A stretch of DNA of 42,856 nucleotides from the NCBI GenBank assembly GCA_004356825.1, contig SMXC01000199.1, positions 1 through 42,856 on the forward strand. The letters are read 5' to 3'. Made by a program: the position numbers and the translations under genes. Under the pieces are notes generated by a model. The model searched no databases, had not been told where the DNA came from, and saw only the letters and a list, made by a program, of their open reading frames with translations. Below are positions 29,664-31,961 of the stretch, piece after piece. Within the stretch, counting starts at the first letter, position 1. Every line of letters begins with the position of its first letter. Source of the stretch: Caldithrix sp. GTDB lineage: Bacteria > Zhuqueibacterota > Zhuqueibacteria > Oceanimicrobiales > Oceanimicrobiaceae.

Positions 29664-30602
29664 TTGAGTAAAGTAGGATTTTATTCCCACAATGATTACT
29701 TAAAACACAAAACAGGCCCCGGTCATCCCGAACGCCCTGAACGGCTGCAATATCTTACTCAGCATTTAAAAAAGACCGATGTTTTTGCAGGACTAACTTT
29801 TTTATCTCCCAGCCTCTGCGACATTAACCGAATTAAACAAATTCATCCCGGAAATTATGTTGAAAACATACAAAACGCTTGCAAAAACAGATCACATTCT
29901 TTAGATTCTGATACGGTCGTTTGCGAGGATTCTTATGAGACTGCGCTTTTGGCGGCGGGAGCGGTGGTAGATGCCTGTGATGCGATTGTTGAAGGAGCAT
30001 TGGAAAGTGCCTTCTGCGCTGTTCGGCCACCAGGTCATCACGCTGAACCTGCAAAAGCGATGGGGTTTTGTTTGTTCAACAATGTGGCGATTGCCGCCAG
30101 ATATTTACAGGCTCAGCATTCGATTAAAAAAGTCTGTATCATTGATTGGGATGTTCACCATGGTAACGGCACTCAAAGTGCCTTTTATGACGACCCGACG
30201 GTTTTTTACCTTAGTATCCATCAGCACCCGTTGTATCCCGGCACAGGATTAGCCGATGAGAAAGGTCAGGGCGAGGGAGCAGGAACGACGTTAAACTTTC
30301 CTTCTCCAGCCGGCTTTAGCGATAGAGAATACTTGCAGATGTTTGAAAATGATATCGCCCGGGCAGTCAGTAAATTTAAGCCCGAATTTATGTTGATTTC
30401 CGCAGGCTTTGATGCACACCAACATGATCCGCTGGCAAATATGAATGTCACTGAAGAGGGGTTTGCACGGATGACCCAGGTCGTGCATGATTTATCCAAA
30501 GAATTTTGTCAGGGAAGAATGATTTCGGTTTTGGAAGGCGGCTACGATTTGGATGCTCTGTCGCGAAGCGTGGAACATCACTTGCGAGTAATGTTAAAAT
30601 AA
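29664..30602 (+). CDS. Histone-deacetylase-family (AcuC/HDAC-like) hydrolase
   Basis: The 312-aa protein starts at TTG (29664); the upstream ATG at 29651 runs into a stop. It has the arginase/deacetylase fold with 'GPGHPERPERLQYL' at the N terminus, 'CAVRPPGHHAEPAKAMGFC' (the tandem active-site His), 'IIDWDVHHGNGTQ' (metal Asp/His), 'ISAGFDAHQHDPL' (metal Asp), and 'VLEGGYDLDALSRSVEHHL'. The family removes acetyl groups from lysines, polyamines or acetoin-related substrates. All catalytic residues are present, so it should be active. The substrate is unknown. pcm follows 27 bases later. Confidence 0.92.
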   Translation: MSKVGFYSHNDYLKHKTGPGHPERPERLQYLTQHLKKTDVFAGLTFLSPSLCDINRIKQIHPGNYVENIQNACKNRSHSLDSDTVVCEDSYETALLAAGAVVDACDAIVEGALESAFCAVRPPGHHAEPAKAMGFCLFNNVAIAARYLQAQHSIKKVCIIDWDVHHGNGTQSAFYDDPTVFYLSIHQHPLYPGTGLADEKGQGEGAGTTLNFPSPAGFSDREYLQMFENDIARAVSKFKPEFMLISAGFDAHQHDPLANMNVTEEGFARMTQVVHDLSKEFCQGRMISVLEGGYDLDALSRSVEHHLRVMLK

Positions 30603-30629
30603 AAATAATTTTTATGGGATACTTGAAGA

Positions 30630-31316
30630 GTGTTCGAATTTGAGAAAAATATTGGGTTAAAGCCGGGCGATACTTTTGCGCATCTCGAGGTAAGAAAAAA
30701 GATGATAAGGAGTCAAATTATCGCTCGAGGCGTAAAAAATCCGGCAGTACTCAAAGCCTTAGAAAAGGTGCCGCGCCATAGATTCGTGAACGAGAGTTTA
30801 GAAAACTCGGCTTATGATGATGCTCCGTTGCCGATTGGAGAGGGACAAACGATTTCACAGCCATTTATTATCGCATACATGACTGCCGCTTTAGAACTCA
30901 AGGGCGGCGAAAAAATTCTGGAGGTCGGCGCCGGGTCAGGCTATCAGGCGGCCGTTTTATCTGAAATTGTTGGGCAAGTTTATACGATTGAAATCAATGA
31001 AAATTTAGCGATAGATGTTGCTATGCGGTTAAAAAAAATAGGCTGCCATAATGTTTCACTGAAATTTGGGAACGGCTATAAAGGCTGGCCTGAACATGCA
31101 CCTTTTGACGGTATCATCGTCACGGCCGCACCGAATGCAATTCCACAGTCTTTAGTTGAGCAACTCAAAATAGGCGGGAAAATGGTCATTCCCGTAGGTA
31201 AGACCAACCAGGATTTGATTGTCGTCACAAAATTTCCGGACGGATCTGTTAAAAAAGAATCACGAATTCCGGTACGATTTGTCCCGATGATTCGTGAGAC
31301 CGAAAATGAAGAATAG
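30630..31316 (+). CDS. pcm: Protein-L-isoaspartate O-methyltransferase
   Basis: Pcm repairs isoaspartyl residues in damaged proteins. The 228-aa enzyme starts at GTG (30630) and includes 'MIRSQIIARGVKNPAVLKAL', 'VPRHRFVNES', 'AYDDAPLPIGEGQTISQPF' (the PCMT signature), the SAM-binding 'KILEVGAGSGYQAAVLSEI', 'GNGYKGWPEHAPFDGIIVTAA' and 'QLKIGGKMVIPVG'. Length is usual, with about 17 extra residues at the N terminus. It lies between an HDAC-family gene and rpiB with seven bases to the latter. Confidence 0.95.
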   Translation: MFEFEKNIGLKPGDTFAHLEVRKKMIRSQIIARGVKNPAVLKALEKVPRHRFVNESLENSAYDDAPLPIGEGQTISQPFIIAYMTAALELKGGEKILEVGAGSGYQAAVLSEIVGQVYTIEINENLAIDVAMRLKKIGCHNVSLKFGNGYKGWPEHAPFDGIIVTAAPNAIPQSLVEQLKIGGKMVIPVGKTNQDLIVVTKFPDGSVKKESRIPVRFVPMIRETENEE

Positions 31317-31322
31317 TGCTGA

Positions 31323-31961
31323 ATGAGAAAATTGATAACCGAGCACGATGTCATTGATGCCTCTAGAAAGCAGAAAACCGAGCTGACCGTTTCGCCTAAT
31401 TGTATTGTAACCCCTTCTGCTCGAGACGCAGCCGCTATTCGAGGGATCAGAATCCTTAAAAAAGAAATAACGGATACCTCCCCAACTCAGCAACTCTCCC
31501 CGAAAGTTCAATTCTCAGGCAAAATAATTATTGGTTCGGATCACGGCGGCTTTGAGTTAAAAGACATACTCAAAAACTATCTAACTGAATTGGGTTGGGA
31601 ATTCGATGATGTGGGCACGCATTCAACTGAGTCCGTGGACTACCCGGACTTTGCTTATGCAGTTGCTGAAAAAGTTACAAATGACGCAGGATTATTAGGT
31701 ATCATTATAGATGGAGCCGGTGTCGGCTCCGCGATGGCCGCAAATAAAGTTTGTGGAATTCGAGCGGCTTCGTGTCAGGATACTTACACTGCCAGAAATA
31801 GCCGACTTCATAATAATGCAAACGTTTTGACTCTCGGAAGTCGATCTCTTGGGATCGACGTTGCCAAAGAGATTGTAAAAACTTGGGTTGAGACTCGATT
31901 CGAGGGTGGTCGGCACCAAGCCAGGGTTAATAAAATCATGGCAATCGAAAAGAAGAAATAA
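31323..31961 (+). CDS. rpiB: RpiB/LacA/LacB-family sugar-phosphate isomerase with N-terminal extension
   Basis: The C-terminal 145 residues match ribose-5-phosphate isomerase B: 'KIIIGSDHGGFELKDIL', 'DDVGTHSTESVDYPDFAYAVAE', 'AANKVCGIRAASC', and 'SRLHNNANVLTLGSR'. The active-site 'CGTGIGM' segment reads 'DGAGVGS', so the usual catalytic Cys is Asp130. About 60 extra N-terminal residues ('RKLITEHDVIDAS', 'IVTPSARDAAAIRGIRI') resemble a small domain often seen with microcompartment-associated enzymes, ending in a flexible linker. No microcompartment shell genes are nearby. It should isomerise a pentose or tetrose phosphate, but the true substrate is uncertain. Confidence 0.85.
   Translation: MRKLITEHDVIDASRKQKTELTVSPNCIVTPSARDAAAIRGIRILKKEITDTSPTQQLSPKVQFSGKIIIGSDHGGFELKDILKNYLTELGWEFDDVGTHSTESVDYPDFAYAVAEKVTNDAGLLGIIIDGAGVGSAMAANKVCGIRAASCQDTYTARNSRLHNNANVLTLGSRSLGIDVAKEIVKTWVETRFEGGRHQARVNKIMAIEKKK

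Follow-up and report, generated by a model that had tools for sequence, protein, structure and literature searches.

An RpiB-like protein of Caldithrix sp. with aspartate at the catalytic cysteine position and a EutQ-like N-terminal module, predicted to be microcompartment cargo

We identified, in a 42,856-nucleotide contig of Caldithrix sp. (SMXC01000199.1, assembly GCA_004356825.1; hereafter the window), a gene for an RpiB-like protein that has aspartate in place of the catalytic cysteine of ribose-5-phosphate isomerase B and belongs to a clade in which this aspartate is invariant. On the evidence of its sequence and of its relatives, this Asp-RpiB is predicted, almost certainly, to work inside a bacterial microcompartment; the reading that we favor, and consider reasonably probable, is that it docks to the shell and isomerises pentose phosphates in an SPU-like microcompartment that catabolises nucleosides and is encoded by scattered genes. 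The open reading frame gives a stop-free translation of 212 aa, with the following parts:

31323 to 31961, plus strand: Asp-type RpiB gene (translation; PF02502, E 4e-55)
31323 to 31463, plus strand: EutQ-like putative shell-docking module at the N-terminus, residues 1-47, with helices at 7-15 and 31-40 (NCBIfam EutQ/TIGR02536/PduM; AlphaFold2; PMC12487888)
31464 to 31514, plus strand: flexible linker, about residues 48-64 (low pLDDT)
31515 to 31958, plus strand: RpiB domain, residues 65-212 (Pfam, structure comparison)
31710 to 31730, plus strand: active-site loop DGAGVGS (alignment of 192 RpiB-like sequences)
31710 to 31712, plus strand: Asp130, replacing Cys66 (same alignment)
31728 to 31730, plus strand: Ser136, at the position of Glu75 of mycobacterial RpiB (same alignment)

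The protein and its N-terminal module

The protein is a member of the RpiB/LacAB superfamily, matching Pfam LacAB_rpiB (PF02502) over residues 68-205 with 186 bits (curated cut-off, 24.7), and its nearest solved structures are ribose-5-phosphate isomerases B. The AlphaFold2 model (mean pLDDT 93.9), for which 54 homologues were aligned, has an N-terminal module of about 47 residues (pLDDT about 95-98), followed by a loose linker around residues 50-64 and then the RpiB fold; the extension, pointed out in an earlier note made from the sequence of the window, is therefore genuine. The model superposes on the RpiBs of Clostridium thermocellum (3he8) and Escherichia coli (2vvr) with 0.7 Å rmsd, and Foldseek matched it to 3he8 with a TMt of 0.96.

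The earlier note had also likened the extension to a module of microcompartment-linked enzymes, and comparison with NCBIfam upholds this likeness across the family: residues 1-48 match EutQ 1-49 and the C-termini of TIGR02536 and PduM. Since the E-values for the window protein are modest (1e-4 to 2e-3), homology of the module rests on the family as a whole, in which TIGR02536 is matched by 34 of 54 members and EutQ by 21 of 54; the best EutQ match of a homologue is 2e-7, and one homologue matches EutT too. In Salmonella EutQ, helices H1 and H2 bind the shell (deletion of residues 9-41), and residues 1-99 are enough to target sfGFP to the compartment (PMC12487888). The two helices and the flexible linker of our model fit this shell-binding arrangement. 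Unlike EutQ, in which the module precedes a cupin, the window protein carries it ahead of RpiB, and we saw in it no counterpart of the cargo-binding part (H3/H4). At the sequence level, features of docked microcompartment cargo are thus found both here (the EutQ/TIGR02536-like module) and in seven module-less homologues, which have amphipathic helices instead. Sequence comparison of the 48-residue module with solved structures gave no match, and a single-sequence search found the module in no other protein of the same genome.

Aspartate at the cysteine position and the clade that carries it

The loop of the window protein reads IIDGAGVGSAMAANK. In the alignment with E. coli RpiB, Asp130 corresponds to Cys66, Ala132 to Thr68, and Ser136 to Ile72, a position that is Glu in the Mycobacterium-like forms (GGSGNGE); both substitutions read from the loop at the outset, Asp130 for the catalytic cysteine and Ser136 for the mycobacterial Glu, are borne out. 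Neither canonical RpiB base (Cys66, or Glu75 of the mycobacterial type) is present, Asp130 and Ser136 being there instead. All 103 distinct Asp-type sequences have the Asp and 99% have the Ser, with the Thr position variable; such invariance within one clade means that Asp130 is not a chance substitution. Asp9, His10, Asp42-Tyr43-Pro44, His99, Asn100, Arg133, and Arg137 (E. coli numbers) are likewise 100% conserved in the Asp-types, and the window protein has the complete canonical set for binding and ring opening (these residues, with Tyr43 from the middle three). We know of no Asp variant of RpiB that has been tested.

In the known RpiBs, Cys abstracts the proton at C2 and Thr relays one between O1 and O2; replacement of Cys by Ser or Ala abolishes activity (PMC4783025). 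Asp130 probably replaces Cys as the base. Because the binding and ring-opening residues are 100% conserved, the site should still bind a pentose phosphate and open its ring, with the proton-transfer part alone altered, and the invariance of the substrate residues argues for a substrate that is the same as, or very similar to, ribose 5-phosphate. Counting against an isomerase of the usual kind, Thr68 is lost in most members of the clade and the oxyanion-hole glycines vary in the Ignavibacteria-type members, both of which point to altered catalysis. Members from Kryptonia and Ignavibacteria (L009, L015, L017, L020, L021, L023, L025, L026, and similar ones) have relaxed loops, for example DGTGVAS, DAVGVAS, and DSIGLAS, in which oxyanion-loop glycines are lost and the Asp and Ser are kept. 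Cys151 was considered as a stand-in base and rejected, being neither invariant nor nearly invariant in the Asp clade.

Compared with ordinary RpiB (2vvr, 3he8), the window protein thus shares the fold and the substrate-binding and ring-opening residues, but differs by the changes Cys66 to Asp, Thr68 to Ala, and Ile72 to Ser and by the N-terminal module. It resembles the M. tuberculosis-type RpiB (Glu75 base) in having a carboxylate instead of Cys as the presumed base; here, however, the carboxylate is at the Cys position, with Ser at the Glu75 position, and the two types fall in separate clades.

We assigned RpiB-like genes to types in three sets, namely 61 genomes of the phylum, 50 from other groups, and 80 homologous loci; most of the genomes are draft or metagenome assemblies. 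The 192 RpiB-like sequences comprise 103 Asp, 68 Cys, 9 Gly/Glu, 7 CWTGTG, and 4 degenerate forms and 1 unclassed fragment; the phylum set was searched by family. The window protein was the query that retrieved Asp-types from elsewhere, so the counts outside the phylum (here and below) do not represent a random sample. The Asp forms make a single clade (support 99/94) in a 119-sequence tree, and this clade persists after the loop columns are dropped (SH-aLRT 81), as expected of the distinct RpiB subfamily that had been suggested. The module is present in 91 of the 103 Asp forms; seven others, from Chloroflexota, have an amphipathic N-terminal helix of the encapsulation type alone, and five are fused to DeoC. 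In contrast, the module is absent from all 84 forms of the Cys, Gly/Glu, and CW types.

Two further groups of RpiB-like proteins were observed. L159 (G059:C47) and six more CW-type sequences form a separate clade with the loop CWTGTG, and two BMC-P genes are located about 2 kb from the L159 gene. L161, L162, L163, and L164 encode proteins of about 240 aa that combine the docking module with a degenerate RpiB domain whose catalytic residues are lost; their genes adjoin BMC-P triplets, and they are possibly a scaffold derived from the enzyme.

Shell genes, partner enzymes, and housekeeping isomerases

The remark in the earlier note that no shell genes are nearby is true of the window (contig C324 of the genome) and fails for the genome as a whole, which has two BMC-H genes on C300 and three BMC-P genes on C240 and C322. 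These shell genes are spread over three contigs and form no single cluster, and the Asp-RpiB gene has no physical linkage to them, which counts against the favored reading. On C322 the gene order is phosphomutase, BMC-P, DeoC, and pyrimidine-nucleoside phosphorylase (PynP); the pair of BMC-P and DeoC is found again in relatives, in most cases accompanied by PynP and often by phosphomutase. The five RpiB-DeoC fusion genes adjoin BMC-H and BMC-P, and in two other genomes the fusion adjoins the same phosphomutase and PynP genes. Within the phylum, BMC-P is present in all 25 Asp-type genomes vs. 23 of the 36 others (p 4e-4). In 29 of the 80 homologous loci (in Chloroflexota, Planctomycetota, and Acidobacteriota) the gene has DeoC and/or shell genes no more than 10 kb away, and in Bacteroidota, Ignavibacteriota, and the class of the window the Asp-RpiB gene is mostly detached. 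In this last class the detached gene sits behind conserved genes: a histone-deacetylase-like gene (hdac) and pcm lie upstream in the window (29664-31316) and in 21 related loci, and PspC-like genes are often near. The phosphotransacylase PduL, which in SPU compartments usually accompanies an aldehyde dehydrogenase, was not found in the genome, a further point against the favored reading. The N-terminal helix of its DeoC is not claimed as an encapsulation peptide, since 33% of shuffles were at least as amphipathic. At C322:8403-9242 (L091) there is possibly a metal or Fe-S site.

The gene in the window is the only RpiB gene of its assembly (94.7% complete), in which no RpiA was found, and the protein was at first assumed to be the only ribose-5-phosphate isomerase of the cell; the isomerase genes of relatives overturned this assumption. 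A relative of the same genus has RpiA, so the absence is likely a gap in the assembly. With the Asp-types set aside, RpiA and Cys- or Gly/Glu-type RpiB are almost mutually exclusive among the 61 genomes of the phylum (both in 3, RpiB only in 38, RpiA only in 17, neither in 3; p 2e-9, shared ancestry ignored), and the retest on 50 Asp-type genomes of other groups gave a similar split (2, 28, 18, and 2, respectively; p 2e-9, again with shared ancestry ignored). Of the Asp-type genomes, 22 of the 25 in the phylum and 48 of the 50 others have a housekeeping isomerase (RpiA or Cys/Gly-type RpiB). Since Asp-type genomes nearly always have RpiA or a Cys-form RpiB as well, the gene content suggests that the Asp form is not the housekeeping isomerase; retention of the other isomerase implies that the Asp form is sequestered in an organelle or performs something else.

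The favored reading would work as follows. The protein would be enzymatic cargo of a microcompartment encoded at scattered places in the genome and would be docked on the inner face of the shell, as homology suggests, by its EutQ-type module (the N-terminal 47 residues) through the flexible linker. Through its conserved residues, the RpiB domain would bind a pentose 5-phosphate and open the ring. The pentose phosphates may come from the nucleoside phosphorylase and phosphomutase whose genes accompany the shell gene, so that the compartment would handle the sugars of DNA and RNA, with RpiA or a Cys-type RpiB doing the housekeeping isomerisation of ribose 5-phosphate.

The protein could also be microcompartment cargo in which the Asp/Ser site catalyses a different reaction or has a different sugar phosphate as its substrate; it might, for instance, feed DeoC by opening the deoxyribose 5-phosphate ring, or isomerise some other pentose or tetrose phosphate. 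Such a change would agree with the failure of the Asp-types to substitute genomically for RpiA or Cys-type RpiB, with the replacement of both Cys and usually Thr beside an invariant ring-opening His99, and with the direct fusion to DeoC in five genomes. We nevertheless regard it as unlikely, though deserving of weight: the residues that bind ribose 5-phosphate are unaltered, including both phosphate-binding Arg, sequestration alone explains the genomic pattern, and the window protein exceeds the NCBIfam rpiB equivalog cut-off (177 vs. 139 bits).

An ordinary cytosolic housekeeping isomerase, with a changed base and an incidental extension, is very improbable. The sole RpiB and missing RpiA of its assembly speak for it, but the module or another targeting feature occurs in 103 of 103 Asp-types and 0 of 84 others, and relatives, including one of the same genus, keep an RpiA that an incomplete assembly may simply lack. 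We give even less credence to an RpiB that has lost catalysis and persists in the compartment as a structural or adaptor protein. Loss of the Cys base is compatible with this, as is the existence of degenerate RpiB domains with the same module beside BMC-P triplets; unlike those proteins (L161-L164), however, in the Asp clade the residue at the base position is always acidic and the substrate-binding and ring-opening residues are invariant, and for this clade a dead enzyme was rejected.

Comparison with known microcompartments, and other proteins with the module

As described in the main texts of two surveys (Axen 2014, PMC4207490; Sutter 2021, PMC8217296), SPU microcompartments pair RpiB and DeoC with shell proteins, the enzyme pair being a pfam01791 aldolase and a pfam02502 isomerase (PMC8217296), and for SPU, RpiB-DeoC fusions have already been reported in Marinimicrobia and catabolism of DNA sugars has already been proposed. 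In these main texts we saw no mention of the Asp replacement or the EutQ-like module. The genome studied here has the same pair (DeoC beside BMC-P on C322, RpiB in the window), but its genes are scattered over C240, C300, C322, and C324, whereas those of SPU form one locus. FRAG microcompartments, according to the main text of Sutter 2021 (PMC8217296), have shell genes at several genomic places and three BMC-P genes, a triplet with members of defined clades, are reported from Ignavibacteriae and related phyla, and have no recognisable signature enzyme. Our genome is like FRAG in gene arrangement (shell genes on three contigs, three BMC-P genes) and unlike it in the signature enzymes proposed here, the detached Asp-RpiB and the BMC-P-adjacent DeoC.

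Among the main texts of openly licensed papers, searches on three topics (Asp-RpiB, nucleoside microcompartments, and FRAG in combination with DeoC) yielded nothing beyond the two surveys; SPU compartments with RpiB are already known, and we found no published description of the Asp clade, of RpiB bearing a EutQ-type module, or of a connection with FRAG. A wider proposal, which we put forward tentatively and with more doubt than belief, is that the Asp clade represents a third type of RpiB active site, one that evolved within microcompartments and serves a DeoC-coupled step (possibly not the isomerisation of ribose 5-phosphate), and that FRAG compartments are scattered-gene organelles catabolising nucleosides and deoxyribose. 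For one FRAG lineage or more, the module-bearing, detached Asp-RpiB and the DeoC beside BMC-P offer a specific function that can be tested, and would point to the breakdown of DNA and RNA sugars as the job of scattered-gene organelles with no assigned function. In addition, the fixation of Asp for Cys throughout a large clade amounts to a natural experiment in changing the base of an aldose-ketose isomerase, and the invariant Asp together with the docking module provides a simple sequence signature for cargo that lacks an adjacent shell gene.

Elsewhere in the compared loci the module was also seen in other settings. In L060:10609-11322 (whose protein has no Pfam match) and L044:9808-11334 it stands at the C-terminus, in open reading frames that overlap the end of the Asp-RpiB gene or follow it. 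Three small proteins of about 115-140 aa (L058:15483-15896, L071:15007-15399, and L079:15252-15599) carry it near the N-terminus, lie inside SPU-type loci, and are possibly shell-docking adaptors.
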